The position numbers and the translations under genes were made by a program. Shown piece by piece: positions 5,648 through 41,333 of a stretch of DNA of 64,000 bases (positions within the stretch are counted from its first letter, which is position 1; each line of letters begins with the position of its first letter). Location: the NCBI RefSeq assembly GCF_024343775.1, contig NZ_RJUF01000175.1:62001-126000 (forward strand), read 5' to 3'. The notes beneath the pieces are model-generated. The model did no database searches. It had not been told where the DNA came from and worked only from the letters and a program-made list of their open reading frames with translations. This DNA is from Lacihabitans soyangensis. GTDB lineage: Bacteria > Bacteroidota > Bacteroidia > Cytophagales > Spirosomataceae.

Positions 5648-5658
5648 AATATTTTGAA

Positions 5659-11848: not shown

Positions 11849-11940
11849 TTGTAAAAGGTTAAATAGAGAATAAAAACCGCAAAATAAGGAAGCCAAGCCA
11901 TATATTCAAGGAATCATTTAAATTCTTAAAAAACACTTAT

Positions 11941-11948
11941 TATATTTG
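11941..11948 (+). promoter_or_regulatory. Candidate -7 element for the histidine kinase operon
   Basis: TATATTTG matches the Bacteroidota TAnnTTTG -7 motif and lies 42 bp before the TTG start at 11991. No good TTG -33 box is visible at the expected distance, so support is weak. Confidence 0.35.
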
Positions 11949-11990
11949 TGTTATAACCGAACTTTCCCAAATAAAAATTAAGAACAAACA

Positions 11991-13250
11991 TTGAGTAGAA
12001 ATACCATTAGACTTGTCATTATTTTAGGAGTAATTGCCATTAGTGGTATCATTGCAATTCAGATTTATTGGGTAAAAAAAGCCTTCGACCTTAAAGACCA
12101 GCAGTTTAGGCAATCAACAATGGTTGCACTCCGTAACGTCGCCAATCAAATATCAAAGTCCTACAAGTTAGCCAAAATAGAAAACCCCGTAAGCCAGTAT
12201 TCGTCAGACTATTATGTGGTAAACCTGCGTGTACCGCTTCAGCAAAGTCTTTTGGAACATTTGCTCAAAGAAGAATTTAAGAAAAACAATATCAACACCG
12301 ACTTTGAATATGGTATTTATGACTGTGAAACGGATAAAATAGTTTTTGGTGCCCATATCAACAGCGACTACGAAGTAGAGGAAGTTGATCAGACCATCAT
12401 ACTGCCTACTACAGATAAGTTTTTAAATTATTTCGGAGTTAAATTTCCTAATCAAAAGAGCTATTTAACTAGTAAGCTGGATTTTTGGATTGTTTCTTCT
12501 ATCATTACCATGGTAGTGATGGCGTTTTTTGCCTATGCTATGTTTATAATTTTAAAGCAAAAACGCTTGAGTGAGGTACAACGTGACTTTATCAATAACA
12601 TGACGCACGAGTTTCAAACGCCCATCTCTACCATAAAAATTGCTACGGATGTGTTGGCACAGAGTAAAATTTTGGAGCAACCTGAACGATTCAAGAAATA
12701 TGTGCAGATCATAAAACAAGAAAATAATAGACTTAAAAATCAAGTAGAGTCGGTATTGGCAACCGCAAGAATTGGTAAAGGGCAAATAGAGCTGGATATG
12801 AAGCTACAAGAACTTCATGAAATTATAGGCGAAGTATCCGACAGTGTCAAAGCAGAATTGGAGGATAATTTTACCTTAGATTTGAATGCCACCAAAACTA
12901 CCATTAACGCAGATAGAATGCATTTAATGAATGTGATCAGGAATCTTATTGACAACGCCATCAAGTATTCGGGCAAACCTCCAAAAATAAAAATATCCAC
13001 CCGAAATGAGAACAATTTATTGATTGTGTCTATTTCAGATAAAGGAATCGGTATCCCGAGAGAAGCATTGCCCAAGATTTTTAATAAGTTTTACCGTGTA
13101 CCAACGGGTAACTTGCACAATGTCAAGGGTTTTGGACTTGGACTTAATTATGTAAAAGAAATTATCAACCTTCATAAATGGAAAATAAATGTAATAAGCG
13201 AAATGGGCGTAGGCTCGGTTTTTGAAATCAATATTCCATTACCTGATTAA
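11991..13250 (+). CDS. Sensor histidine kinase (two-component)
   Basis: The 419-residue product begins at TTG; the first in-frame ATG (codon 44) would delete the first membrane helix, so TTG is preferred. Layout: TM1 (about 8-27), a 135-residue periplasmic sensor of no recognised family, TM2 (about 166-187), then HisKA with M-T-H-E-F-Q-T-P-I (phospho-His206). The HATPase_c domain follows: N box N-L-I-D-N-A-I-K-Y-S near 318, G1 D-K-G-I-G-I-P near 348 and G2 G-F-G-L-G-L-N-Y-V near 378. The cognate OmpR-type regulator starts 8 bp later. The stimulus is unknown. The downstream DoxX-like and FKBP genes hint at an envelope or redox-stress circuit, which is inference. Confidence 0.93.
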   Translation: MSRNTIRLVIILGVIAISGIIAIQIYWVKKAFDLKDQQFRQSTMVALRNVANQISKSYKLAKIENPVSQYSSDYYVVNLRVPLQQSLLEHLLKEEFKKNNINTDFEYGIYDCETDKIVFGAHINSDYEVEEVDQTIILPTTDKFLNYFGVKFPNQKSYLTSKLDFWIVSSIITMVVMAFFAYAMFIILKQKRLSEVQRDFINNMTHEFQTPISTIKIATDVLAQSKILEQPERFKKYVQIIKQENNRLKNQVESVLATARIGKGQIELDMKLQELHEIIGEVSDSVKAELEDNFTLDLNATKTTINADRMHLMNVIRNLIDNAIKYSGKPPKIKISTRNENNLLIVSISDKGIGIPREALPKIFNKFYRVPTGNLHNVKGFGLGLNYVKEIINLHKWKINVISEMGVGSVFEINIPLPD

Positions 13251-13258
13251 ATAAAAAA

Positions 13259-13939
13259 ATGGCAAAAATATTATACGTTGAAGACGACCCTAACCTAGGT
13301 TTCGTGACCAAAGACAACCTCGAAGAGGAGGGATTTGAGATTGTTCATTTCTCCGATGGCAAGGAAGCTTGGAAGTTTTTCAAAAAGGAAAAGTTTGACC
13401 TATGTTTACTCGATGTCAACTTGCCTGAGTTAGATGGTTTTTCTTTAGCCGAAAAAATCAGAACGCAGAATTCGCAAATTCCAATCATATTTTTGACTGC
13501 CAAAACACTCCAGGAAGATAAGATAGCTGGTTTGAAAATAGGAGGAGACGATTATATTACCAAGCCTTTCAGTATTGAAGAACTTGTGCTCAGAATCAAA
13601 GTGTTTTTGAAAAGAAATGCCGTTTCTGATTCTACGGCCACTACAGATGTGTTTTCTTGTGGTGACTACGAGTTTTGTTTTTCGCAACAAACCCTCAAAC
13701 TCGATGAGGAAATTCAAAAACTCACCCACCGTGAGGCTGAGGTGTTGAAGTTTCTGTGCGAGCGTAAGAATCAAATTACCAAACGTGAGGAAATTTTGAC
13801 CGCAATATGGGGAAGAGACGACTACTTCTTGGGTCGTAGCATGGACGTTTTCGTTACAAGAATCAGAAAAATGCTCTCCAACGATCCGAAAATCAAGATT
13901 GAAAATATACACGGAGTAGGTTTTAAATTGAATTGCTGA
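13259..13939 (+). CDS. OmpR/PhoB-type response regulator
   Basis: The 226-residue product has a receiver domain with the acidic pair Asp9/Asp10, phospho-acceptor Asp52 (L-L-D-V-N-L-P), Thr80 and Lys102 (Y-I-T-K-P-F). A winged-helix output domain follows at about 128-226, with H-R-E-A-E-V-L-K-F-L, W-G-R-D-D-Y-F-L-G-R-S-M-D-V-F and V-T-R-I-R-K-M-L. This is the usual DNA-binding regulator paired with a HisKA kinase, and it begins 8 bp after one. The next gene starts only 1 bp after its stop codon. No binding sites can be assigned from the sequence alone. Confidence 0.95.
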   Translation: MAKILYVEDDPNLGFVTKDNLEEEGFEIVHFSDGKEAWKFFKKEKFDLCLLDVNLPELDGFSLAEKIRTQNSQIPIIFLTAKTLQEDKIAGLKIGGDDYITKPFSIEELVLRIKVFLKRNAVSDSTATTDVFSCGDYEFCFSQQTLKLDEEIQKLTHREAEVLKFLCERKNQITKREEILTAIWGRDDYFLGRSMDVFVTRIRKMLSNDPKIKIENIHGVGFKLNC

Positions 13940-13940
13940 T

Positions 13941-14288
13941 ATGTTTGAGTGGCACCAAGTTATTTGTAGTGTGTTGTTTATAGTGGCTGGTATCATGCAT
14001 TTTGCTAAGCCCAAGTTTTACCTTTCCATGATGCCTCCTTATTTGCCGTTTCACAAAGAGTTAGTTTGGATTACGGGAATCGCTGAAATCGTTTTTGGAT
14101 ACAATCTACTTTTGCCAAAAATGCAAGCGGCTTCTGCATGGGGATTGATTTTGCTTTTGATATTAATGTTCCCTGCAAATATTTATATGGCCACAGGTGA
14201 GAAATTCAAGAAGATTTCTCCTATAATTCGTTGGGGAAGACTGCCTCTACAGGCCTTGTTGATTTGGTGGGTGAGTTTATATTTATAA
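13941..14288 (+). CDS. DoxX-like small membrane protein
   Basis: The 115-residue product has four hydrophobic helices (about 4-22, 39-58, 62-82 and 93-114). The stretch V-A-G-I-M-H-F-A-K-P-K-F-Y-L-S-M-M-P-P-Y-L-P is typical of the DoxX/MauE-like group: G-x-x-H-F at the end of helix 1, then a proline-rich turn. Family members are quinone-pool-linked or thiosulfate-related membrane proteins; most have no assigned substrate. It starts 1 bp after the response regulator and ends 19 bp before the FKBP gene, so it is in the same operon. Confidence 0.8.
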   Translation: MFEWHQVICSVLFIVAGIMHFAKPKFYLSMMPPYLPFHKELVWITGIAEIVFGYNLLLPKMQAASAWGLILLLILMFPANIYMATGEKFKKISPIIRWGRLPLQALLIWWVSLYL

Positions 14289-14307
14289 AAATTTTAAATT
14301 TTTCTTG

Positions 14308-14760
14308 ATGAAATATTTCAAAGTGCTTTCGATATTTTTGTTCTCTGCTGTTTTGTTTTCTTGCGAAAAAGACACGCTTTCGGGCACCGAAGAAGAGCAA
14401 ATAGAAAGCTACATTCAAAGTAAAGGCTTGGTGGTGACTGAAAAGACAGCCACCGGCTTGAGATACATCAGAACCAAAGAAAATGCTGCTGGAACAATGT
14501 TGGTGAAGGGTAAAACTGTTTCTCTTAACTACACCGGTAAATTGCTGACTGGCAAAAAGTTTGACTCTGGTTCGTTTAGTTTTGTTCTGGGTGGAGGCCG
14601 AGTTATTAAAGGTTTCGATGAAGGTATTGCTAAAATGAGGGTTGGAGAGTCCGCTTCTATTATTTTTCCTTCGAGCCTAGGCTATGGCAGTCAGGGTACA
14701 AGTGGCATACCAGGCAATTCCCCGCTTTTGTTTGAGATAGAGATTCTATCGGTAAATTAA
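14308..14760 (+). CDS. FKBP-type peptidyl-prolyl isomerase, lipoprotein
   Basis: The ATG at 14308 is chosen over a TTG at 14305, giving 150 residues. The signal sequence ends in a lipobox (V-L-F-S-C, Cys19), so the protein is membrane-anchored, on the periplasmic side or outer membrane. The FKBP domain spans about 55-150: V-S-L-N-Y-T-G-K-L-L-T-G-K-K-F-D-S-G, V-I-K-G-F-D-E-G-I-A-K-M-R-V-G-E and I-P-G-N-S-P-L-L-F-E-I-E-I-L. It catalyses proline isomerisation in folding envelope proteins. It is the last gene of the kinase/regulator/DoxX run. Confidence 0.92.
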   Translation: MKYFKVLSIFLFSAVLFSCEKDTLSGTEEEQIESYIQSKGLVVTEKTATGLRYIRTKENAAGTMLVKGKTVSLNYTGKLLTGKKFDSGSFSFVLGGGRVIKGFDEGIAKMRVGESASIIFPSSLGYGSQGTSGIPGNSPLLFEIEILSVN

Positions 14761-29103: not shown

Positions 29104-29619
29104 TTACCAAGTTCTCACACGCACTAGTTTACCGCTCAGGCTAAAATCTAACCTCACTCGGTTGCTCAGTTTTACCTCGTATTTGTCTGAGGATTTCTCC
29201 GCTTTTACGATGGTAACGCCTGGGTAGTTTTTAGCTATGTAGTCCAAGATCACCTGCGGAAGTGCTGCCATGGTGTCGTCAGATACTTTTGTGCCATTTT
29301 TACTACCTCCCGAAACTTCAATGAATACACCCGAAAGGCTAAATTCAAGTTTGGTTAAATCTGAAAGCGTAACTTCGAATTTTGTCAGGTACTTTTCAGC
29401 CTTTGTGATGGTCTTACCAGGGTAATTGGTGTTGAGATACAGGGTTATTGCCCCTGGCAAAGAACTGGCGGACACTTTCACACCGTCTCCTGAGGCGTTT
29501 TCTAATCCTGAAAAAACAGCTGAGCTGTCGTCTGGGCTTAGCAGGGAATCCTCACAAGAAGTAAGCGTCAAAACCACTAAAGTCAAAAAAGACAAGCCAA
29601 AATTTCTGAATGTTTTCAT
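29104..29619 (-). CDS. PepSY-like (DUF2874) lipoprotein with two repeats
   Basis: The start is the ATG at 29617-29619 (MKTFRNFGLSFLTLVVLTLTSC), giving 171 residues with a lipobox Cys near residue 21. The frame is open upstream to 29712, but that extension has no signal-like character. Two tandem repeats of about 60 residues follow: L-P-G-A-I-T-L-Y-L-N-T-N-Y-P-G-K-T-I-T-K-A-E-K and L-P-Q-V-I-L-D-Y-I-A-K-N-Y-P-G-V-T-I-V-K-A-E-K, each followed by K-(F/Y)-E-V-x-L-S and F-S-L-S-G. This is the PepSY-like family of Bacteroidota (BLIP-like fold), of unknown function. It is divergent from the lipoprotein/CHAT pair with a 140-bp intergenic region. Confidence 0.85.
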   Translation of the reverse strand: MKTFRNFGLSFLTLVVLTLTSCEDSLLSPDDSSAVFSGLENASGDGVKVSASSLPGAITLYLNTNYPGKTITKAEKYLTKFEVTLSDLTKLEFSLSGVFIEVSGGSKNGTKVSDDTMAALPQVILDYIAKNYPGVTIVKAEKSSDKYEVKLSNRVRLDFSLSGKLVRVRTW

Positions 29620-29759
29620 AATTTTAAATAATTTACGGTGATAATTGATTTTCATAACTAAGTAGGAGCTGATCTGAAAAATGTAACCGCTTTTAAAATT
29701 ATTTTTTTGCAACCATCGTTAGTTTACCATCGTAACGATATACAAAGCCCCAGAAATTG

Positions 29760-30701
29760 ATGAAAAACCCACTTAAAATATTGTTTTTACTCCTCACAGC
29801 TTGGGTGTTTGCTTGCAATCCAAACTTGGACAATGACGATATTTTGCCTGATGATAATAACAATGCCATCAATAGTCAAAGTACTAATGATCAGGGTTCT
29901 ACGCAGACTGGAAACGGTTCAACGATTAAGCCTGCCTGTAATCTGATAGCCTACAGCGACACGCTTTTTTTCCTAGAAAACCTCAAGGATGACCTTAAAG
30001 TAAAACCGCTGGTAAAAAGAGATGGCGAATATGGTGCCTACCCCGAAGGCTTAGAAATAAATGAATCGCATGGCGAAATAAATATAACCAAAAGTGAATC
30101 AGGCCTAAGGTATACCGTCTTTTTTATCCCCAAAAACACCAAAGATACTTGTTTTACGCACCTCACAATTTCTGGAGTGGACTACCTCAGCAAAATTTAT
30201 CTTTTGGATAAAAATGAAAAAATAGCAGCTCCCATTTATAACAATAATCCAGCTTTTGCCATACCCGGAGTCAATACCCGCACAACAGAATTTGACGACG
30301 ACGATGATGATGACAACGGAAACGGAACCTTAGACGAACCTCTACCCGGCCAACAAGTGATTGCTCAAGGTTTGGATATTTCAAAAATTGACGGAAAAAT
30401 TGTCTTGGACAACTCTCTGAGAAAGGGACTGTTAGGCACAAATCCGAAAAATGGCTCCACCAAAAAGCTCAAACTATTTTATAGACTAGACGATAAAAGC
30501 GGAAAGGCTCTTAATCGCATAGAACTCGAATTTCATTATTTCGAAAAAGAAAGTGATGTGCCGAAAAGCCTGAAAGACAAGATAATTGAAAATCAAAATT
30601 CGTATTACAATCCCAATTTTGGTTTAAAATATGCTCGTATTTTTAGAATATTCCGAAAACCTCGACCACCTCAAATAGTGATAGTAGGCAGAAATTACTA
30701 A
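29760..30701 (+). CDS. Lipoprotein with acidic tract, unknown function
   Basis: The ATG at 29760 (a TTG precedes it) gives 313 residues. The lipobox W-V-F-A-C (Cys19) is followed by an Asn/Asp/Gln/Thr-rich, presumably unstructured linker (20-58). A beta-rich domain at about 60-160 follows, then a run of seven Asp (179-185) with N-G-N-G-T-L-D-E-P, like a calcium-binding loop. The C terminus is basic and aromatic (R-I-F-R-K-P-R-P-P-Q-I-V-I-V-G-R-N-Y). No known family. It ends 8 bp before the TPR-CHAT gene, so the two are one operon and this lipoprotein is a candidate partner or substrate of the CHAT protein. Confidence 0.75.
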   Translation: MKNPLKILFLLLTAWVFACNPNLDNDDILPDDNNNAINSQSTNDQGSTQTGNGSTIKPACNLIAYSDTLFFLENLKDDLKVKPLVKRDGEYGAYPEGLEINESHGEINITKSESGLRYTVFFIPKNTKDTCFTHLTISGVDYLSKIYLLDKNEKIAAPIYNNNPAFAIPGVNTRTTEFDDDDDDDNGNGTLDEPLPGQQVIAQGLDISKIDGKIVLDNSLRKGLLGTNPKNGSTKKLKLFYRLDDKSGKALNRIELEFHYFEKESDVPKSLKDKIIENQNSYYNPNFGLKYARIFRIFRKPRPPQIVIVGRNY

Positions 30702-30709
30702 TTTCGTGC

Positions 30710-33397
30710 ATGAAGCTCAGGCACCTCTCTGTTTTAGGAATTTTTGTTTTTGGCTTGGCCATTTCGCAGCCAGAGAAAACCAATATTGAAAGAGAGTTCA
30801 ATAAAGGTTTGGCTTTTTTTAATAACGAAAACCCAACTGACGAATCAGACAGAAGGGCATTGGGCCATTTTTCAAAAATAGCTGTGTTAAGTCCTCAAAA
30901 TCAAAAAGAGGCTATTTTGGTTAGAAACGCCAACGAAAAATTGGGAGTGCTTTATCAAACACAGGAGCAATTTCAAAAAGCCAAGCAGTATTATAAAAAT
31001 AGTCTTTCAATAGCCCAAAAACACCAGCTCAAGGATTCATTGAGTTTTTCTTCTTTGCTTTATATCAGTGGTTTATATTATTATGAGTCTGTTTATGATT
31101 CTTGTTTAATTTATTTATCAAAAGCCGAAGCGATTTCTGAAAAGTACCCCAAGCTTCCAGAGTCAGAGCGTTTATACAATACCAAAGGTGTCTTGCTCTT
31201 TGAATCTGGAAATTTCAGGCAAAGTTTGGCTTATTTCAAAAAGGCAGAGTTGCTCGAAAATACAGACGAGTTTTCTAACAAAAACAACCAAGCATTGGCC
31301 TTGCAGTTTTTGAACCAGCCTGATAGTACGTACAAGATTCTGAAGTACTTAGAAAATAATTTTTCGGACAATAATGAGCTAAAAATCAATCTGGCTACGG
31401 TACTCATAGAATTGAATGAGCCGCAAAAGGCTCTTTCTTATTTGAAACAAATCGAAGGCGATTCGGTGGTTTTTTACAATACGCTTGCCAAGGCTTATTT
31501 TAAGTTAAAGGATTTTGAAAAGGCTCAAAAGTATTTGCAGTTAACCATTGGTTTATCGAAAAGCAAACACCCTAACATTGGCTTTGCTCATCATTATTTA
31601 GGGAAAATTGCCGCCATGAAGGGTTCGTATTTCGAGGCACTTTTTCATTTCCAATCGGCACTTCAAAACTTGGATTATTTTTTCAAAGAAAAAAATGTAT
31701 ATAGAAATCCCAAAAATGTGAGTAATGGTTTTTATTCTTATTTTTTGTTGGAAATTCTTAGTGAAAAAGCCGAACTATTTGGGAATTTGTACCTGAAAAC
31801 CGGTAAACTGCATTACCTGAGAGGTGCAATTTCTACTTACGAGGCCTTCGGTCTGATTGCAAGTAATATTTCCAAAACTTACAGTCAAGAAGATGCCCGC
31901 TTGGATATCATAGATAATATACATCCTAAATATCAGGGGTTTGTAAAGATTTTATGGGAGGCTTATCGAAAAACTGGAGAAGTAAAATATGCACAACGGG
32001 CCTTTGAGGTTAGTGAAGAGAGCAAGGCAACAGTGCTGGCTTTGGGCATAAACGAAAGCAAAATCAAAACCTCCAGTGATATACCCGATTCGTTGTTGTT
32101 GAGCGAACAAAATCTTCATATTTCCCTGGCGGCTCTCCGCAAAAACATTGAAAATAGCTCAAGCCCGGAAAAAGTAAAACAATACCTCGCAGCCATTAAT
32201 GAAATCGAAATAAAAATTGGGAGTTTGAATGAGAAGTTGGAGAATTTTCCTGCCTATAAAGCCCGCAAGTTTATGGATAGTCAACATGTAGAAGTTGATA
32301 AACTGAGAAGTTTTTTAACACAAGATGAGGCCTTGGTCACATATGCCGACTTGGGCGATAAAGCAATCCTTTTTTGTCTTACCAAATCCGACTTTAAAAC
32401 TTACGAATTACCGAATAAGACAAATTTTGAATCTCAGGTAAAGAGGCTTAAATATAAAATTAATAATGCCGAAGAATCTGTTGAGGCTAAATCGGTTTAC
32501 CGAGCTCTTTTTGGGCCTTTTGAGGAAATTCTGGAAGAAAAAACGCATATTGTTTTTGTAGGAGATGGCGTAACCAATGGCTTGCCTTTAGAATATTTAT
32601 TAGACAAGAAAAGTAAGTTTTTGGTTGAAAATCACGCTGTTTCTTATTTGTTTTCGGCTAAGTTTATTCTTTCTGCTAGTAAATCTGCGACCAACGGGCA
32701 TATTTTAGCATTTGCTCCTTTTGCAGATCAAAAATATGGCAAAGACTTCCTACCCAATTCTTTAAGTGAGGTCAGAAATATTGGAGGAGATAAAATTTTG
32801 GAAAACTCTAAAGCTACCAAGCAAGCGTTTTTTGAAATTGCCAACCAATATCAAATTATACACCTTGCCACACACGCCTTGGCCGATGTTGTTTCTCCCG
32901 AAAAATCATTTGTTAGGTTTTCTGGTTCAGAGGACAACAAGCTTTATTTGTTTGAGTTTACTGCTGGAATGCTTAAAAATACACAATTGGTTTTTCTTTC
33001 GGCATGCGATTCTTACGGCAACTCAAATATGCAAGGCGAAGGTATTAGAGGACTTTCTAGAGGGTTTTATTTGGCTGGCTCGCAGAGTATTATATCATCT
33101 TTGTGGAAAGCGGAAGATTTCGCTACTGCTTATTTAACGAAGCACTTTTATAAACATCTTTCTGAAGGGAATTCGTATCCAGAAGCACTTCAAAAGGCCA
33201 AGTTAGATTTATTAACCGATCCAACGATGGTTCAATTTCGACACCCCAAATATTGGTCTCATTTGATATATGTTGGTTTCCAAAAACGCGAATCTAATTG
33301 GCATGCGTACCTGTGGATTTATATATCGCTGACAGTTTTGGTACTTTTCGCATGGTGGCAGTTCAAAAAAGGCGTTCTTTCAAAGCTAAAATTTTAA
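30710..33397 (+). CDS. Exported TPR-CHAT domain protein (caspase-like)
   Basis: The 895-residue product has a signal peptide (about 1-18). TPR repeats span about 20-420 (for example Q-F-Q-K-A-K-Q-Y-Y-K-N-S-L and D-F-E-K-A-Q-K-Y-L-Q-L-T-I), then a linker helix region. The CHAT domain (about 540-855) has the caspase-like dyad H-L-A-T-H-A (His722) and L-S-A-C-D-S (Cys766), plus G-I-R-G-L-S-R-G-F-Y-L-A-G and S-L-W-K-A. A C-terminal membrane helix (about 867-886) ends in a short Lys-rich tail. Predicted topology: TPR and CHAT in the periplasm, tail in the cytosol. It overlaps the convergent anti-sigma-like gene by 35 bp. CHAT proteins are cysteine peptidases or degenerate relatives; here both dyad residues are kept. 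Confidence 0.9.
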   Translation: MKLRHLSVLGIFVFGLAISQPEKTNIEREFNKGLAFFNNENPTDESDRRALGHFSKIAVLSPQNQKEAILVRNANEKLGVLYQTQEQFQKAKQYYKNSLSIAQKHQLKDSLSFSSLLYISGLYYYESVYDSCLIYLSKAEAISEKYPKLPESERLYNTKGVLLFESGNFRQSLAYFKKAELLENTDEFSNKNNQALALQFLNQPDSTYKILKYLENNFSDNNELKINLATVLIELNEPQKALSYLKQIEGDSVVFYNTLAKAYFKLKDFEKAQKYLQLTIGLSKSKHPNIGFAHHYLGKIAAMKGSYFEALFHFQSALQNLDYFFKEKNVYRNPKNVSNGFYSYFLLEILSEKAELFGNLYLKTGKLHYLRGAISTYEAFGLIASNISKTYSQEDARLDIIDNIHPKYQGFVKILWEAYRKTGEVKYAQRAFEVSEESKATVLALGINESKIKTSSDIPDSLLLSEQNLHISLAALRKNIENSSSPEKVKQYLAAINEIEIKIGSLNEKLENFPAYKARKFMDSQHVEVDKLRSFLTQDEALVTYADLGDKAILFCLTKSDFKTYELPNKTNFESQVKRLKYKINNAEESVEAKSVYRALFGPFEEILEEKTHIVFVGDGVTNGLPLEYLLDKKSKFLVENHAVSYLFSAKFILSASKSATNGHILAFAPFADQKYGKDFLPNSLSEVRNIGGDKILENSKATKQAFFEIANQYQIIHLATHALADVVSPEKSFVRFSGSEDNKLYLFEFTAGMLKNTQLVFLSACDSYGNSNMQGEGIRGLSRGFYLAGSQSIISSLWKAEDFATAYLTKHFYKHLSEGNSYPEALQKAKLDLLTDPTMVQFRHPKYWSHLIYVGFQKRESNWHAYLWIYISLTVLVLFAWWQFKKGVLSKLKF

Positions 33398-34085
33398 TTT
33401 TGGCCAAATATTTCCAATTATAGGATTGTTTGTAAGGATTTTGATTGTTCATTTTTTCAATTACTTTCAGAGCATCCGCATATTTGTTAAGTCCAATAAA
33501 ACTCTGGCATTTGTAAAACTCATATTCATTGTCGAAGCTTGATGCCATCTGTTTATTTTCATTTTGACTGATTAATTCAATTGCTTTTTCATAGTTATTG
33601 GTGTTATAAAATGACATCGTGGCTAAGAAAACGAGCTTTTCGTTGGGTGCCTTGGAGGTCTGGAAAATATCAATCACTCCTTTAAAATCATTTCGCAAGT
33701 ATAATAATTCGGCTTGGGCTTTTTCTTCATTAGCTCCACGGTTATTAGGCTCGATATAGTGTATGGGTAGTTCGGTAAGTAATTCATCGCCATTTGTATT
33801 TCCAGCCCATAAAACACTTAAGCTCAATAGCCCAAATACCACCACAACGGCTATTTTTACTACTGGAAAATCAAAGGTCTTGGTTTTTTCGGCCTTAAAT
33901 TGTCTATGAGCATTCCTAACTTCTTGCTTTAGTCCATCGTACTTTAAGAGTTCTATTGCCGCCTGATAATTTAAAAAATTAGCCTTAGTTGCTTCGTTTT
34001 CATCAAGGCTTTTTTCAAACAATTCCTTATCTTTTTGCGACATTTTGCCTCGCAAGTATTCATCAAAAAAATCAGTCTTTTCCAT
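33363..34085 (-). CDS. Membrane-spanning anti-sigma-like protein with TPR sensor domain
   Basis: The 240-residue product has an N-terminal cytosolic part (1-72) with the helical E-Y-L-R-G-K-M-S-Q-K-D-K-E-L-F-E-K-S-L and Q-A-A-I-E-L-L-K pattern of zinc-free anti-sigma domains. One TM helix (about 75-94) follows, then a periplasmic C-terminal part (95-240) with TPR-like helices (A-Q-A-E-L-L-Y-L-R-N-D-F and N-Y-E-K-A-I-E-L-I). It starts 6 bp after the ECF sigma gene, the classical sigma/anti-sigma arrangement. Its 3' end overlaps the TPR-CHAT gene on the other strand by 35 bp (33363-33397). Function is inferred from layout, not from a recognised family motif. Confidence 0.75.
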   Translation of the reverse strand: MEKTDFFDEYLRGKMSQKDKELFEKSLDENEATKANFLNYQAAIELLKYDGLKQEVRNAHRQFKAEKTKTFDFPVVKIAVVVVFGLLSLSVLWAGNTNGDELLTELPIHYIEPNNRGANEEKAQAELLYLRNDFKGVIDIFQTSKAPNEKLVFLATMSFYNTNNYEKAIELISQNENKQMASSFDNEYEFYKCQSFIGLNKYADALKVIEKMNNQNPYKQSYNWKYLAKIKILALKERLF

Positions 34086-34091
34086 TCTTCT

Positions 34092-34700
34092 TCAAAATAT
34101 TTTTAATGCTTTATATAAGGATTCTCTCATAAATGGTTTTTGCTCAAGCTTTTCTGTCAAGGCTTTCATGCATTTGGATTTTTTGTTACGTAAAACCTGT
34201 TCGTTTTCAAACTCGGTAAAGGGCAAGATTTCCTTCAGCGATAGGTTTTCGTAATAAAATCTACTCAAAATATCTTTACAAACCGTTCCTAAACTACCCA
34301 ATACATCGGAAATTAGCTCCAAGGCCTCGTTTTTCTTAATTTGATCGTTTATGTCGGCATCAAATTCTGGATTTTCTTCTATCCAGATATTCAAACGCTT
34401 GTGTTCTGCTTTCTGCTTTTTAATTTTTACCAACCAGATATTCTTCGCCACAGCATACAAAAAGGATTTCAAACTAGATTCACCTTTAAACTTATCGTTT
34501 TGAATTATTTGTAAAACAGCTAAAAAAACTTCTTGAATAACATCTTCGGCATCTTCCTTACTACCGCTGTTGTTCAAAACCATCCTCTCCAAAAAGCCAT
34601 AGTATTCTTTATATAAATACTTTAAACAGGCATTTATTTCAATGTTATTCTTGATTTTTTCAATTATGTCGTTCTCCCTATTTAAGGTAAAAAGAGCCAT
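34092..34700 (-). CDS. ECF-type sigma-70 factor
   Basis: The 202-residue product has a region 2 with Y-L-Y-K-E-Y-Y-G-F-L-E-R-M and D-A-E-D-V-I-Q-E-V-F-L-A-V. The linker F-K-G-E-S-S-L-K-S-F-L-Y-A-V-A-K-N-I-W follows, then a region 4 (about 120-185) with L-G-S-L-G-T-V-C-K-D-I-L-S-R-F-Y-Y-E-N-L-S-L-K-E-I. It recruits RNA polymerase to alternative promoters; its regulon is unknown. Region 4 continues with R-N-K-K-S-K-C-M-K-A-L and a C-terminal extension (about 185-202). It is first in a two-gene operon with the membrane anti-sigma-like protein. Confidence 0.92.
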   Translation of the reverse strand: MALFTLNRENDIIEKIKNNIEINACLKYLYKEYYGFLERMVLNNSGSKEDAEDVIQEVFLAVLQIIQNDKFKGESSLKSFLYAVAKNIWLVKIKKQKAEHKRLNIWIEENPEFDADINDQIKKNEALELISDVLGSLGTVCKDILSRFYYENLSLKEILPFTEFENEQVLRNKKSKCMKALTEKLEQKPFMRESLYKALKIF

Positions 34701-34948
34701 TCTTGTGTTTTATTTAGGCTTTTAATGTTTCAATTCGCCTCTGTTGTATTTACTATTTGGTATAAGCCAACCTTCAAATTGTAACCACTCGGTCAAATCT
34801 TTGACCTAAAAATAACTATATTTTTTAAGGACTAAAACTTGGGATTAACCCGATGCCATTTCTATCCAATTATTTAGGCCAAATCCTCTTAAATTTTGAA
34901 TAACCCAAAAAAAATGTTAGAATTGGAGAATTTTACAAACACTCACCA

Positions 34949-35392
34949 ATGAACAAGTTAACCTTTTTCGTTTTTTCTCTATTGATTTTCAACAAAACTT
35001 ACGCTCAATCGGACCAACAACAAATTGAAAACACTATTTCAACTTTTTTTGATGGCATTTATAAAAGAGATACAGTGCTTATTTCTAGTGTTTTGCATAA
35101 AAACTGTTCCTTGAATTCAGTTAACATTTTGGCTGGAAAGCCAGCTCAACATAAATCCGAAACTATGTCTGGATTTTTCAAATCAATCGCCTCCATTCCG
35201 TCAAATGTAATTTTGGAAGAGAGATTGTTGGTACACAAGATTCAGGTGGATGAAGCCTTGGCAATAGACTGGACACCGTACGAGTTTTATGTAAATCAAA
35301 AACTCTCCCATAAGGGTACCAACGTATTTACACTCGTTAAAACAGGTGATTCTTGGAAGATATTCTCCATTATCGACACACGTAAAAAGTGA
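34949..35392 (+). CDS. Exported NTF2-like (SnoaL/lumazine-binding-like) protein
   Basis: The 147-residue product has a signal peptide (1-19). The pattern I-E-N-T-I-S-T-F-F-D-G-I-Y-K-R-D-T-V-L-I, then A-L-A-I-D-W-T-P-Y-E-F-Y-V-N and T-N-V-F-T-L-V-K-T-G-D-S-W-K-I-F-S-I-I-D-T-R matches the NTF2-like cone fold (DUF4440/SnoaL_2 group). Such exported Bacteroidota proteins have no proven activity; some bind small ligands. It is divergent from the sigma factor gene (248-bp gap) and 58 bp upstream of the DUF885 gene. Confidence 0.78.
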   Translation: MNKLTFFVFSLLIFNKTYAQSDQQQIENTISTFFDGIYKRDTVLISSVLHKNCSLNSVNILAGKPAQHKSETMSGFFKSIASIPSNVILEERLLVHKIQVDEALAIDWTPYEFYVNQKLSHKGTNVFTLVKTGDSWKIFSIIDTRKK

Positions 35393-35450
35393 AATTTCTT
35401 AATCTTTTGCTCAAATTTTTATTTTTGCAAATATTCTCAATTATATCAAA

Positions 35451-37211
35451 ATGAATAAACTATTAGTTTTTGTAGTACTCAGTATTTTTGCATTTAGTTG
35501 CAAACCCAAAGAAAACAACGAACTCAAAACCTTATTTGAGCAATATTACGAAGAGCGTCTACAGTTTTTTCCTCTAGAGGCTACCTCGCAGGGAGATAAT
35601 AGATTCAATGACAAACTCCCGATAGATATTTCTGAAAGTTACAGAAAAGATCTACTAGCTTTTTACCACAAATACAATGCAGAAATTGACAAGATTGATG
35701 TTCAAAAACTCTCTGAGGATGAACTTATCCAATACAAAACTTTGAAATTTAACATAAATACGGAGATAGAAGGCTTAGGATTTCCTACACACCTTATTCC
35801 TTTTAATCAGTTTACCGGTTTGCCTTTGACATTTGCTCAGTTGGGTAGTGGAGAAGCCTCACAACCTTTCAAGACTACTCAAGACTACGACAATTGGCTG
35901 AAAAGAGTTGATCAGTTTGCTGTATGGGCTGACTCGGCCATCCTAAATTTTAACAAGGGTATTGCTGTTCAGTATGTTCTGCCAAAAGCCTTGGTGGTGA
36001 AGATGATTCCTCAAATGCACGATTTATCTTCCGCAGCTGCTCCCGAGAATCTGTTTTTTGGACCAATAAAGAAACTACCAGCTACATTTACAGTAGAACA
36101 AAAGGCTCTTTATACAAAAAAATATACCGATGCCATCGAGAATAAAATTCGCCCAAGCTATAAAAAACTAGAGGACTATTTATCAGGGACCTATATTAAA
36201 GCTGCCAGGTCTTCTAGTGGTGTTGGTGGGTTTGTGGGTGGTAAAAAATATTACGAATATCTCGCTTACTACTGGACTACTTCTTTGAAATCTCCTGATG
36301 AGATTTTCCAGACCGGCCTTTCTGAAGTTTCTAGAATTAAACAAGAAATGCTCAAAGTGAAAGATCAGGTTGGTTTTAAAGGGGATTTACCTGATTTTTT
36401 TGAAAGTGTAAAAACTGACCCCAAACTCATGCCATTTAAAAATGCGGAGGAAGTTTTGGCTGCTTTTAAAGCTATTCAGACTAAAATTGACCCGAATCTT
36501 AAGAAAATGTTTAACAATACTCCCAAAACTGGCTTCGAAATCAGAAGGACGGAGGCATTCAGAGAGGCGTCAGCTAGTGCGGAGTACATGCAAGGCCCTG
36601 CAGATGGTAGTCGTCCGGGTGTATTCTATGTGCCTATTCCGGACGTCACCAAGTTTAACTTAACCTCGGGCATGGAGTCACTTTTTCTTCATGAAGCCAT
36701 TCCAGGGCATCATTATCAGGTCTCTTTGCAACAAGAAAATTTGGCGATTCCAAAGTTTATGCGTTTTGGTTGGTACGGAGCTTATGGCGAAGGTTGGGCA
36801 CTATATACCGAGTCATTGGGTAAGGAACTCGGGCTTTACACTGATCCTTATCAATATTTGGGAGCCTTGGGTGACGAGATGCACCGAGCTATCAGATTGG
36901 TAGTTGATGTGGGTATTCACACCAAAGGATGGAGTAGGGAAGAGGCTCTGAATTACATGTTACAAAACGAAGCCATCTCTAAAGACGGGGCGATTGCCGA
37001 GATTGAGAGATATATGGCTATTCCGGGTCAGGCTCTTTCTTATAAAATTGGGGCATTGAAAATAAGAGAATTACGTGCCAAATATACCTCGGCATTGGGC
37101 GAGAAATTCAAGTTGGCAGATTTTCATGACCAAGTTCTGAAAAACGGCTGTTTGCCATTAAGTGTGTTGGAAGAAACCTTAGATGCCTGGGCGAATACAT
37201 TAGCCAAATGA
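35451..37211 (+). CDS. DUF885 lipoprotein, putative metallopeptidase
   Basis: The 586-residue product has a lipobox F-A-F-S-C (Cys17). The DUF885 hallmark H-E-A-I-P-G-H-H-Y-Q (His414, Glu415 and downstream His) is a zinc-type motif embedded in helical surroundings. Y-G-E-G-W-A-L-Y-T-E follows at about 445, where the second Glu group is expected. Family members are surface- or periplasm-linked peptidases of gluzincin type. A GNAT gene overlaps its last 4 bases (ATGA), so translation is coupled. N-L-T-S-G-M-E-S-L-F-L-H-E-A precedes the metal site, as in other members. Confidence 0.9.
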   Translation: MNKLLVFVVLSIFAFSCKPKENNELKTLFEQYYEERLQFFPLEATSQGDNRFNDKLPIDISESYRKDLLAFYHKYNAEIDKIDVQKLSEDELIQYKTLKFNINTEIEGLGFPTHLIPFNQFTGLPLTFAQLGSGEASQPFKTTQDYDNWLKRVDQFAVWADSAILNFNKGIAVQYVLPKALVVKMIPQMHDLSSAAAPENLFFGPIKKLPATFTVEQKALYTKKYTDAIENKIRPSYKKLEDYLSGTYIKAARSSSGVGGFVGGKKYYEYLAYYWTTSLKSPDEIFQTGLSEVSRIKQEMLKVKDQVGFKGDLPDFFESVKTDPKLMPFKNAEEVLAAFKAIQTKIDPNLKKMFNNTPKTGFEIRRTEAFREASASAEYMQGPADGSRPGVFYVPIPDVTKFNLTSGMESLFLHEAIPGHHYQVSLQQENLAIPKFMRFGWYGAYGEGWALYTESLGKELGLYTDPYQYLGALGDEMHRAIRLVVDVGIHTKGWSREEALNYMLQNEAISKDGAIAEIERYMAIPGQALSYKIGALKIRELRAKYTSALGEKFKLADFHDQVLKNGCLPLSVLEETLDAWANTLAK

Positions 37212-37684: not shown

Positions 37685-40600
37685 TTATTTCTTCAACATC
37701 TTTAATGAATAGGTATTTTTATCAGTCTGAACTTTTAAAATATATTGTCCTGATGACAAGCTTTTTACGTTTTCAGTAATTTTAGTGCTACATCTTATTG
37801 ATTTTCCCGAATTATCTAAAATTTCCATAGCTACCAACTTCTCATCTGCCGGTATTGTCAGATTTATAAATTCTTCAACGGGGTTAGGTGCGATATTTAT
37901 AGATTTCGCATTTACAGGTTCGTTGGCCAATACTGCCGCTGAAATTGCGTTAGAAGCCAGACTCGCACAACCGTCGGCTGTTACATTTCTAACGGTATAA
38001 ACACCGCCGAAATCCTTGCTAAAAGTGTTATTGGTTGTTTGCCCACCCACCGGATTATTATTGACATAGAATTGATAAAGTGTTCCTCCCGAAGCTGTTA
38101 CACTTGTTGAACCATCTGTAAGTCGGGGCGTAGGAGGTGTTATGCAAAAGACGACATCAGCTGTTGTACTGGCATATTTGGCGTCACCCACCTGAATAGC
38201 CCTAATGGTTACTTTGCCTGGGGTGGAGCCTAAGGTTACTATTTTGCCATTAATAGTGGCATCGCCAGATACCACCGAATAAATCAACCCAAGTTTGGAG
38301 GAGGCGGTGGCCACAATTTCAAAAGACGACCGTGGAAGTTTGTCTGATATCGCGTTTATGCTGATGCTTTGGGTTTCTTTAGTAGGCAATGCTCTAGTGC
38401 CGGTGGCGTAGGTAATTCCCCATTTGGCATCGGTAAAGAGGATTTCTGAAGCTCCATTCGGAGATATTTTGTCATTTTTAAGATTTACTCCTTTTATAAC
38501 AGACTTGGATTTATCTTTGGCATTGAAAAGCACTTTACTATCGGCCTTTGTAAAGTTAGGATAACCGATGTCGTTGTTTTCTTCTAACACTTTTACATTA
38601 TCAGTAGATTTGCCAAAATCGATAGTAACCACATAGAAAACCTCTTCGTTAGACACAAAATAGTCAAAAGCGTAAATGCCCGTGTTTGTTTTCGCCAAAG
38701 CAGGATTGCCAATATTGTCGCCTTCTTCCAGATTGGAGAACATTTTTTCTATAACACCATCGGAGAAATCTTTTTTCAAAGGATCCCAAACTCTGATGAT
38801 ACCCACATCCCAGTATTGGAATTTCTTGAATGACGTTTTGGCTTCATTAAAGGCATCATAGATAATAAACTCCCCAGAATAATCCCATTCGAAAGAATCT
38901 GCATACAATACCTCGCCTGTACTAACGCCTTGGGTATATGTAGGGTTGTAAAGTTCGAATCTTTTGTTTTTGTTGTTTACCAGGTCAAAAACATAAATAT
39001 AGGTGTCATTTTTACTCGCCAATGCGGCCAGTTGTTTTCCATCTTTCGAAATCGCCACATTCCTCCAGGAAGGGTCGCTCGAAAGCCTTTGAGGTTCTGA
39101 TTTTTTGGTTAAATCTACTCGATAGATATGAAAATCTTTACTCACGAAATATACAAAACTACCATCATCCGTTATACTCGGTTTTCCAAGACATCCCAAC
39201 CCATTCGTAATTTTGGCGAAACTGCTTCCGGTAAATACTCCTGAGTACAAACTGTTGTCAGTTGGATCAAATGCCACCAAAGATTCTGTTCCGGGATTGG
39301 TTGGGATGGTGTTATCTGTTGATTTATTTCCGGTTCCAGTATTCCCTGTGTTTCCGTTGTTGGAGGTTGTACCGTCAGAAATACCAACAAAATCAAACGC
39401 GGCTCTTGCAGCGGTGGTCTCTTGTCCTTCCCCATAAATATCCTTTGCGGCCTGAATGACTGCCACTCGCAAATCTGCGAATTTCGAGGTTCTTGTCAAG
39501 TAAGTGGTCATCGCTCGCCAATATACACGCTCAGCTTTGTCTTTATTCATGCCAGCCCCGGTTGCAAACTTAAAAAATGCATGATTAGGTATACCACTGT
39601 TAATATGCACTCCACCATTATCTTCGCTAGGGGTGTCTTTTAAAAATTGGTACTGAGACATGTTTTTGGGTTGATATCCGTTGTCGTTTTTACCGCCCTG
39701 ATTAGGGTTTTCGAGCGACCTTAATGCCCCAGAAGGAAACACATTAGTTTTAACTACATCCTCACCCAAAGTCCAGTCGTCTCTATCAATCAGTGCTCCA
39801 AAAATATCTGCAAAGGACTCATTCAATGCTCCTGATTGATTTCGATATTCTAATTTGGCCGTGTTTTCTATAACACCATGAGTCATTTCGTGCCCAGCCA
39901 CATCAAGTGCACCTGCCAAAGGTTTGAAGCCATCTTTGCCATTTCCATAACCCATAAACTGACCATTCCAATAGGCGTTGTCCATGCCCTTTCCATCTTC
40001 ATCGGCTATGTTTATTACCGAAATTATATTTCCCTTAGAGCCATTTAATGAATTTCTGTTGAACTTCGAAAGGTAATAATCATAACATATAGAGGCATTT
40101 ATGTGTGCCGATACTGCTGTTGGGTTCCAATTGGTTCGGCTAGTCGAACTTACATGGGCCAGATCCATTTCCTTGGCATCTATTCTTGAGTTTTGTGCGT
40201 CAATGGTCCAAATAACTCCCTTAGGATTGTCAGGTAAACTCGACTGTGGGTTGTACATGTTCTTGGTGGCATCTATCATGTAGTATTGCGAGCCAACCTG
40301 TACTGTATTAAATGTCTTCGTTATTCCGTTTAGGTCTTTTGAGGTGGCACTGACCACACCATCTAGCGTACAGGTATGGTTATATTTGTTAATCACTTCT
40401 CCAGAATGAGCGTCAATAAAGTACACCCAACGTTCGAGAATATTGGGTCTAACCGTGATATGATAAACCAAATTATTCTTTTTGTTCTCGTTTAAGATTG
40501 TTAATTCGGCGACATCAGGATCCAGTTTTAAAAATTGATTGATATTGCCTGATTTCTGCACTATCGTATTTTTGCCTAAATCTTTAAGACTCAATTCTAT

Positions 40601-41149
40601 CGCTGCCGAAGGGCTAATATTTGGGCTGACGTTAAGATTTGGACTCGGAAAAATCTTTCCCATCAGGAACTCAGCCACACCGTTTTTGTTGGTATGAATT
40701 ACGGCTTCGCCACCGTAAATAGGTATATTTTTATAGGTTTGTTCCAGTTTTATATGTCGTAACCCCAGGTCGTCTGTTTCATCGGCTACTAACCTGAATT
40801 CTTCTCCTATATTATTGATTTTCAAATCATTTTTTAGCGAATTCAAGAAAGAACTGGTCGTTTCAGAGCTATTTTTACGGGCATTTCTTTGGTCTCGCGT
40901 AAAAACCGGATTGTTGATATAAATCACGGCCCCTGTTTCTTCGTCTTTGAGGATTTTTTTCAGAGCTTGCTTAGGAGAAAAGGCTATTCTTGGGTTATTT
41001 TTTTGTTGATTTTGTTTGGCAGTTATGGTCTCAAACTCGCCCTTGACAGGTTCTCCAGCCGGCATTCTTGTTTTACTTTCGAAACCTTTTTGTGCAATTG
41101 TGAGCGTGGCAATATGTATTAAAATTAAGGAAAGTAGCTTTTTTTTCAT
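37685..41149 (-). CDS. M4-family metalloprotease with beta-propeller and T9SS sorting domain
   Basis: The ATG at 41147-41149 is preferred over a TTG 9 bp upstream; 1154 residues. Signal peptide (1-20), FTP/PepSY-like propeptide (about 50-270), then a thermolysin-like catalytic domain: V-A-G-H-E-M-T-H-G (His420, Glu421, His424) and A-L-N-E-S-F-A-D (Glu444), with G-G-V-H-I-N-S-G-I-P-N-H-A-F. Next come a Gly/Thr/Asn-rich linker, a TolB/PD40-like propeller (about 620-930), a Bacteroidota Ig-like module with P-G-K-V-T-I-R-A-I-Q, and a type A T9SS domain (about 1080-1154: N-I-A-P-N-P-V-E-E-F-I-N-L-T-I ... Y-I-L-K-V-Q-T-D). It is a secreted or surface-anchored protease. Confidence 0.95.
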   Translation of the reverse strand: MKKKLLSLILIHIATLTIAQKGFESKTRMPAGEPVKGEFETITAKQNQQKNNPRIAFSPKQALKKILKDEETGAVIYINNPVFTRDQRNARKNSSETTSSFLNSLKNDLKINNIGEEFRLVADETDDLGLRHIKLEQTYKNIPIYGGEAVIHTNKNGVAEFLMGKIFPSPNLNVSPNISPSAAIELSLKDLGKNTIVQKSGNINQFLKLDPDVAELTILNENKKNNLVYHITVRPNILERWVYFIDAHSGEVINKYNHTCTLDGVVSATSKDLNGITKTFNTVQVGSQYYMIDATKNMYNPQSSLPDNPKGVIWTIDAQNSRIDAKEMDLAHVSSTSRTNWNPTAVSAHINASICYDYYLSKFNRNSLNGSKGNIISVINIADEDGKGMDNAYWNGQFMGYGNGKDGFKPLAGALDVAGHEMTHGVIENTAKLEYRNQSGALNESFADIFGALIDRDDWTLGEDVVKTNVFPSGALRSLENPNQGGKNDNGYQPKNMSQYQFLKDTPSEDNGGVHINSGIPNHAFFKFATGAGMNKDKAERVYWRAMTTYLTRTSKFADLRVAVIQAAKDIYGEGQETTAARAAFDFVGISDGTTSNNGNTGNTGTGNKSTDNTIPTNPGTESLVAFDPTDNSLYSGVFTGSSFAKITNGLGCLGKPSITDDGSFVYFVSKDFHIYRVDLTKKSEPQRLSSDPSWRNVAISKDGKQLAALASKNDTYIYVFDLVNNKNKRFELYNPTYTQGVSTGEVLYADSFEWDYSGEFIIYDAFNEAKTSFKKFQYWDVGIIRVWDPLKKDFSDGVIEKMFSNLEEGDNIGNPALAKTNTGIYAFDYFVSNEEVFYVVTIDFGKSTDNVKVLEENNDIGYPNFTKADSKVLFNAKDKSKSVIKGVNLKNDKISPNGASEILFTDAKWGITYATGTRALPTKETQSISINAISDKLPRSSFEIVATASSKLGLIYSVVSGDATINGKIVTLGSTPGKVTIRAIQVGDAKYASTTADVVFCITPPTPRLTDGSTSVTASGGTLYQFYVNNNPVGGQTTNNTFSKDFGGVYTVRNVTADGCASLASNAISAAVLANEPVNAKSINIAPNPVEEFINLTIPADEKLVAMEILDNSGKSIRCSTKITENVKSLSSGQYILKVQTDKNTYSLKMLKK

Positions 41150-41333
41150 AATTTTCAAAAATTACTGAAATTATTATATTGATCAAATATTCAATAAATA
41201 TAATAATTTAAAATTGGTATTTATAAATTTGATACAAGATAATATATTTATATAAAATATTTAAAAAATATAGTTTAAATACAATAAAAAGCACAATATA
41301 GACTTAAATTACACCATAAAGTACAAATTTTAT

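Follow-up and report, generated by a model that had tools for sequence, protein, structure and literature searches.

Results

A TPR-CHAT protease gene faces an ECF sigma/anti-sigma operon

We analysed a 64,000-nucleotide stretch of DNA (the window) from Lacihabitans soyangensis, a genome of 5,649,495 bases. Here a gene for an exported tetratricopeptide repeat (TPR)-CHAT protease, preceded by a lipoprotein gene, converges with an operon for an extracytoplasmic function (ECF) sigma factor and a putative membrane-spanning TPR anti-sigma factor. Does the protease switch on the sigma factor by cutting its inhibitor? A sequence-only reading of the same DNA had proposed such a circuit, and its gene coordinates and layout (lipoprotein and TPR-CHAT genes facing anti-sigma and ECF sigma genes) are right. 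The features are listed by their positions in the window.

29757..30701, + strand: lipoprotein, co-directional with the CHAT gene, with a Cys near its N-terminus and a C-terminal Arg-Pro-Pro tail
30710..33397, + strand: exported TPR-CHAT (clan CD, caspase/separase-like) protease with a C-terminal membrane helix (PF12770)
32768..32770, + strand: codon of Glu687, which tracks the anti-sigma arginine and is predicted to lie in the S1 pocket
32873..32875, + strand: codon of His722, catalytic dyad
33005..33007, + strand: codon of the catalytic Cys766, invariant in the CHAT sets checked
33363..34085, - strand: putative membrane-spanning TPR anti-sigma factor (helical domain, membrane helix, linker, TPR)
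33735..33758, - strand: linker motif Tyr110...Arg116-Gly117, with the proposed cleavage site after Arg116
34092..34700, - strand: ECF sigma factor, in operon with the anti-sigma gene (TIGR02937 1.3e-19, PF04542 1e-9)
34757..34786, - strand: site resembling an ECF-type promoter, ahead of the sigma gene (GGTTACA plus a 16-base spacer)

The sigma protein scores 70.4 bits against TIGR02937 (cut-off 42.9), and the CHAT protein, which also carries TPRs, scores 154.8 bits against PF12770 (4e-45; cut-off 24), so that both belong to the families named by these profiles. Pfam TPR families match the CHAT protein and the anti-sigma factor alike, and the 3' ends of their genes share a 35 bp overlap. The closest CHATs in named genomes come from Lacihabitans species (57–68% identity). 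We considered a defence system and set it aside: PADLOC matched the CHAT protein to BovA (4e-8) with two weaker matches, and the other three proteins to nothing.

The linkage of CHAT with sigma and anti-sigma genes recurs

The sequence-only reading had called for a search for conserved linkage, and the linkage proves to recur across genera and families. Loci were picked by CHAT similarity alone, and sigma genes were searched for afterwards. In 38 loci of the family, taken from the top of a list of many places with some ranks skipped, all 39 CHATs have an ECF sigma gene within 6 kb (32 convergent, 5 divergent, 2 tandem). Forty loci were taken from the places listed for the phylum; an ECF sigma gene lies within the same distance of 12/20 CHATs at the level of order and class (6 convergent, 2 divergent, 4 tandem), and of 3/21 only in other classes. 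One locus, L096, held no CHAT above the length filter. A named set of 79 loci plus the window, which partly shares genomes with the first locus set, holds 80 CHATs, and 67 of these have an ECF sigma gene within 6 kb (66 convergent, 1 divergent). The remaining 13 have none in the stretch; less than 2.4 kb lies downstream in six of them, and anti-sigma-like open reading frames (ORFs) were recognised by eye in L128, L131 and L169. Two CHATs of the window's own genome (L052, L053) were counted apart, and the sigma pair of L052 lies just beyond its stretch (see L237).

Whole genomes give a similar picture. Among 247 genomes of the class, CHAT is present in 28 of the 29 with a full-length anti-sigma factor (at least 150 of 256 model positions, judged by eye from lists ending near E 1e-7) versus 54 of the 218 others (Fisher p 2e-14, genomes being non-independent). 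The single exception, G507, has no sigma gene beside its match and no linker arginine (see below). G225, with 145 positions and no CHAT, falls narrowly below the limit; counting it in gives 28/30. Three CHATs and as many full-length anti-sigma factors are present in the window's genome, as three neighbouring pairs.

Could the genes be neighbours by chance? These counts rule this out, and the window's genome has only 25 sigma-family matches in 5.65 Mb, 19 of them over the cut-off. Judged by gene positions, the CHAT-ECF sigma linkage is not chance. The association is kept while the arrangement varies, which argues for function and not for inherited order alone.

The protease and the TPR half of the anti-sigma factor are predicted to share the periplasm

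The His722/Cys766 dyad, described as intact in the sequence-only reading, is kept in every CHAT checked (77/77, 83/83 in a second set, and 122/122 paired CHATs; the sets overlap). The AlphaFold2 model of the protease has a predicted local distance difference test score (pLDDT) of 91, and its fold matches include Csx29, separase and DdvA. Topology was deduced solely from charge and hydropathy. In 72/77 CHATs the N-terminus carries a strongly hydrophobic stretch, and in 66/77 a C-terminal 19-residue stretch has a mean hydropathy of at least 1.5 (1.56 in the window), which bears out the earlier proposal of an exported protein with a C-terminal membrane helix. The CHAT tail is more positive than the residues preceding this helix in 73/77, and in 58/63 anti-sigma factors the net positive charge is greater on the N-terminal side of the membrane helix. 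This pattern of charge and hydropathy places the CHAT protein and the TPR half of the anti-sigma factor in the periplasm; by this simple prediction the CHAT domain and the TPR half would share a compartment, again in agreement with the earlier view.

A single arginine is fixed in a flexible linker of the anti-sigma factor

The AlphaFold2 model of the anti-sigma factor (mean pLDDT 88) consists of cytoplasmic helices (residues 2-67), a membrane helix (76-96), a short helix, an unstructured segment (106-123) and a periplasmic TPR domain (124-239). Its confidence is lowest at residues 118-120, within the linker. When 63 anti-sigma factors with 16-63% identity to the window protein were aligned, only Met1, Ala79 and Arg116 were invariant. 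An arginine motif lies 19-29 residues past the membrane helix in 66/66 proteins, and the residue that follows is G (36), S (17), D (12) or N (1). Where a flexible periplasmic linker changes fast, a lone residue that stays fixed is the mark expected of a site-1 cleavage site. The arginine motif was also tried, and rejected, as a strict marker of CHAT at the locus: by eye, it is kept in 13/18 anti-sigma factors without CHAT and absent in 7/21 with CHAT.

The window's anti-sigma factor matches no NCBIfam family at E 0.001; at the same threshold, 10/63 members of the alignment match NF052375 'anti-sigma factor' and 10/63 match NF010501 'putative anti-sigmaE protein'. Against solved chains, the anti-sigma profile matches RsrA weakly (E 0.11).

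The linker arginine covaries with Glu687 of the protease

We assembled 122 pairs with non-identical CHATs, in which an anti-sigma factor scoring above 40 bits has an adjacent sigma gene and a CHAT within 9 kb, and to which a homology filter was applied. A linker arginine was called where a span of 36 residues held an R whose next residue was G, S, D, N, A, T or R; such an arginine is present in 113 pairs and absent in 9. Position 687 is the best of 271 CHAT columns: it is Glu in 111/113 pairs with the arginine versus 1/9 without (p 4e-10; this and the following p-values are inflated by the relatedness of the pairs). The runner-up column (p 8e-5) is five orders of magnitude weaker. After clustering of the CHAT domains, Glu is found in 87/89 versus 1/9 at 70% identity (p 3e-9), in 48/50 versus 1/8 at 50% (p 9e-7), and in 21/23 versus 1/8 at 40% (p 1e-4). 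The window's genome contains two pairs with Arg and Glu and a third with neither. Ser764 and Asp803 also track the arginine, more weakly than Glu687; two other acids, Glu749 and Glu777, were tried and do not track it.

The best tree for 90 of the 122 pairs, built with the Glu687 column removed, has at least 7 changes of the arginine state, and well-supported branches force 3 of them. Six of the seven groups without the arginine also lack Glu. Two sister loci joined with 99% Shimodaira-Hasegawa-like approximate likelihood ratio test (SH-aLRT) support differ in both residues, L070 having Arg and Glu, L065 His and Lys.

What might Glu687 do? According to PMC4357240 and PMC4626109, gingipain R, MALT1 and (by modelling) separase anchor a P1 Arg through an acid within helix alpha1 or close to it; MALT1 and the separase model have a second such acid after beta4. 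In the AlphaFold2 model, Glu687 lies within a helix (684-689), and Asp803 begins the helix after the strand 793-797. By the order of fold elements alone, Glu687 and Asp803 of the model would thus fit the places of the S1 pocket in Arg-specific clan CD proteases. The covariation of Arg116 and Glu687 favours a CHAT protease that acts on the anti-sigma factor at the linker arginine.

Covariation and linkage are equally compatible with a CHAT protein that binds and does not cut, its TPR superhelix or active-site groove docking the linker arginine and altering the grip of the anti-sigma factor; the TPR families in both proteins would suit such docking. A binder has no need of a dyad, which is invariant here (83/83; 122/122), and the covarying residue sits at the predicted S1 pocket. 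We therefore regard binding alone as very unlikely.

A lipoprotein with an invariant Arg-Pro tail accompanies the protease

Most named loci have a homologue of the lipoprotein with the CHAT gene (for 80 CHATs, 74 ORFs score above 100 bits). Cys19, Arg302 and Pro303 are invariant among 73 aligned sequences; all 73 have RP in the last 30 residues, 69/73 have RPP, and a strict lipobox pattern fits 55/73. The fold has no convincing relative among solved structures, and any single Pfam family is matched by at most 5/73 at E 0.001. Beside more distant CHATs this position is taken by other proteins or left empty. Five loci (L057, L059, L064, L066, L067) carry a different family upstream of CHAT, with a Pro-rich tail, VPPPTAGTE, reminiscent of the RPP of the lipoprotein.

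We suggest that the lipoprotein controls CHAT, as an inhibitor or an activator. Securin blocks separase, and the C-terminus of an outer membrane protein acts as the DegS-activating peptide. A tentative and rather doubtful extension is that the lipoprotein is a latch: its Arg-Pro tail (usually R-P-P followed by a run of I/V) may occupy the CHAT active site as an uncleavable pseudo-substrate, or else serve as an activating peptide, and envelope damage would displace it, letting CHAT cut Arg116 in a switch like that of separase and securin.

Sigma and lipoprotein genes share a promoter-like motif

Two further features of the window come into play here.

29104..29619, - strand: PepSY-like secreted protein (PF11396 5e-18), probable sigma target in this genus
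29659..29688, - strand: another promoter-like site of the kind found at the sigma gene, here ahead of the PepSY-like gene (pattern match)

The start of the PepSY-like gene is better placed at 29619, because the resulting length about matches that of close homologues.

All spaced 4+4-base words upstream of lipoprotein and sigma genes were counted, and one motif common to both was refined to GGTTACA, 16 bases and a CGACTAA-like element. With a score of at least 9 it precedes 57/66 sigma genes (shuffled 5.8%), mostly starting 31-45 bases before the start codon, and 36/73 lipoprotein genes (shuffled 6.9%). The shared motif suggests that the sigma factor may regulate its own synthesis. Some other genes that bear it are likely targets, namely those for DUF2490 proteins, a VTC-domain protein and PepSY-like proteins. 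In the window, the motif precedes the sigma gene and the PepSY-like gene. The exact pattern has 2 matches in the genome and its reversed control 7; since the pattern was written from its own two sites, the two matches show specificity only.

A sigma-type motif ahead of the lipoprotein-CHAT operon in half of the relatives (36/73) also fits a different order of events, in which CHAT is an output of the sigma factor that cuts other envelope proteins while another site-1 protease, for example a DegS-like one, cuts the anti-sigma factor; the genome indeed has two trypsin-like (PF13365) proteins. This arrangement predicts neither the tracking of the linker arginine by Glu687 nor the existence of DdvA, an anti-sigma factor that contains a CHAT domain, and the window's own CHAT operon has no clear promoter site. 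We consider it unlikely.

Neighbouring genes and variants of the locus

The surroundings of the module in the window (34949-37211 and 37685-41158) include a lumazine-binding-like gene and a DUF885 gene, which keep their place in L035, L036 and L040. By eye, the long gene at 37685-41158 may encode a secreted metalloprotease-like protein. Between CHAT and anti-sigma genes, the loci L117 and L119 contain a VTC-domain gene with a GGTTACA motif (L119), a DUF1611-like protein (L117) and a multi-span membrane protein. A recurring cassette lies beyond CHAT in L118, L128, L131, L143 and L185, in whose stretches no sigma gene was found. It encodes proteins of ~153 and ~446 residues, a DUF2490 or similar protein, a ~360-residue P-loop-like protein and a ~570-residue transporter-like protein (assigned partly by eye), with the GGTTACA motif ahead of some genes. 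L061 has two TPR-CHAT genes (4017-6995 and 11522-14386) with two sigma-like genes in between. G443 and G515, with loci among L202-L234, hold 29 and 17 CHAT matches and several anti-sigma homologues per genome, and form a natural set for the study of paralogue insulation.

Discussion

A proposed envelope-to-nucleoid module

We propose, with a probability of roughly 0.72, that these genes encode an envelope-to-nucleoid module in which CHAT would cut the anti-sigma factor after Arg116 and thereby turn on the ECF sigma factor. At rest, the sigma factor would be held at the inner membrane by the single-span anti-sigma factor. An envelope signal, perhaps passed on by the lipoprotein, would activate the membrane-anchored periplasmic TPR-CHAT protease, which would cut the flexible segment that joins the membrane helix to the TPR domain, the side chain of Arg116 being held by Glu687 and probably by Asp803 too. 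The next steps would follow other cases of regulated intramembrane proteolysis, with release of the sigma factor by a site-2 protease and cytoplasmic proteases; three M50 matches in the genome (best 1e-51) are candidates for the former. Once free, the sigma factor would drive transcription of the sigma/anti-sigma operon, of some envelope genes (PepSY-like, DUF2490) and, in many relatives, of the lipoprotein and CHAT genes. What the sequences show is the linkage, the intact dyad, the fixed linker arginine with its Glu687 covariation, the common promoter motif and, by simple prediction, a topology with both domains on one side. That CHAT cuts the anti-sigma factor, where it does so, how the sigma factor is then released, that an envelope signal starts the process and what the lipoprotein does are inferred. 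Linkage, dyad, topology and covariation support the non-CRISPR envelope circuit of the sequence-only reading, with cleavage as its predicted step.

Several findings weigh against this proposal. Few of the losses of Arg and Glu are surely independent: the supported-branch test yields 3 independent pairs, 2.8 of which go the same way on average (p 0.25, weak). L085 has Glu and no Arg, in an odd linker, and L072 and L172 have Arg and no Glu. For distant rows the criterion for an arginine is a lenient one, and the true partner may be a CHAT other than the nearest within 9 kb. CHATs paired with Arg-less anti-sigma factors keep their dyad (9/9), so another cut site is needed there. Of the loci chosen by their anti-sigma factor (39 of 41 passed the score filter; L233 and L236 were dropped), only 21/39 include a CHAT within the fetched stretch, and 13/18 of the anti-sigma factors without one retain the arginine; the genomes of these CHAT-less stretches hold CHATs elsewhere. 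The motif is also somewhat enriched at other genes of the loci (81/600 at a score of at least 9; shuffled 8%). Finally, scores ahead of the lipoprotein-CHAT operon are 7-8 in the window and in L114-L116, too low for a good promoter site, which leaves a feedback loop onto CHAT unsupported for this genus.

Might the Arg/Glu687 association merely mark deep, co-diverged sub-families without direct contact, the linkage itself being real? The Arg-less rows, mostly on long branches, the three changes forced by well-supported branches and the arginine that persists where no CHAT is near would all agree with this. Such a history does not readily give a second-best column five orders of magnitude weaker, an association that survives clustering at 40% identity, or the sister pair L065/L070, which changed both residues together. 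We judge it the least probable of the alternatives, slightly below binding without cleavage.

Relation to known systems

No description of this module turned up in the literature searched, the main ECF classification and the DdvS/DdvA papers lying outside that search. According to PMC8999054 (section 3.3), group ECF54 has CHAT proteins in its genetic context and is described as being without an anti-sigma factor. The listed ECF54 model comes from Geodermatophilus, and the anti-sigma factor of the present module sets it apart from that description. Unlike separase, the CHAT protein studied here is bacterial and exported, and is proposed to act on an anti-sigma factor.

The module resembles DegS/RseP-RseA-RpoE in its single-span anti-sigma factor, the periplasmic part of which would be cut first. 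In contrast, a caspase-like cysteine protease would here replace DegS, and the cognate protease is encoded at the locus. In DdvA of Myxococcus xanthus, the partner of the ECF sigma factor DdvS, CHAT and a transmembrane anti-sigma factor form one protein. The module described here consists of two ORFs, mostly convergent, with a separate TPR anti-sigma factor, and so differs from DdvA in not being a single polypeptide; the DdvA fusion provides independent support for the pairing.

Closest in logic is the type III-E CRISPR Craspase (Csx29-Csx30-CASP-sigma); among TPR-CHAT sigma circuits, our searches turned up no other whose substrate is proven. In Craspase a CHAT protease relieves the inhibition of an ECF sigma factor, a step that we predict for the present module. 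The two differ in that protease and inhibitor are here predicted to be periplasmic and membrane-bound, the inhibitor is a membrane-spanning TPR protein, the predicted P1 residue is Arg, and nothing points to an RNA trigger. A Pfam scan found no Cas7-11 or Csx30 among seven neighbouring proteins (neither CRISPR arrays nor the rest of the window were searched), and against solved chains the anti-sigma profile matched TPR proteins, with no Csx30 among the best 60 of 70 rows (Csx30 itself was not compared directly). We do not class the module as Craspase, because CRISPR parts are unseen in the neighbours scanned and both the predicted compartment and the inhibitor architecture differ. If the proposal is right, it names for CHAT proteases a substrate along with the predicted cut position and S1 pocket, which point mutants can probe, and many Bacteroidota ECF sigma factors and lipoproteins now without a function gain one. 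Being compact, directed at Arg and supplied with a membrane-anchored substrate of its own, such a protease could also find use as a tool. The logic of Craspase would then be that of a common envelope-stress system of Bacteroidota, of which Craspase itself may be a special case.

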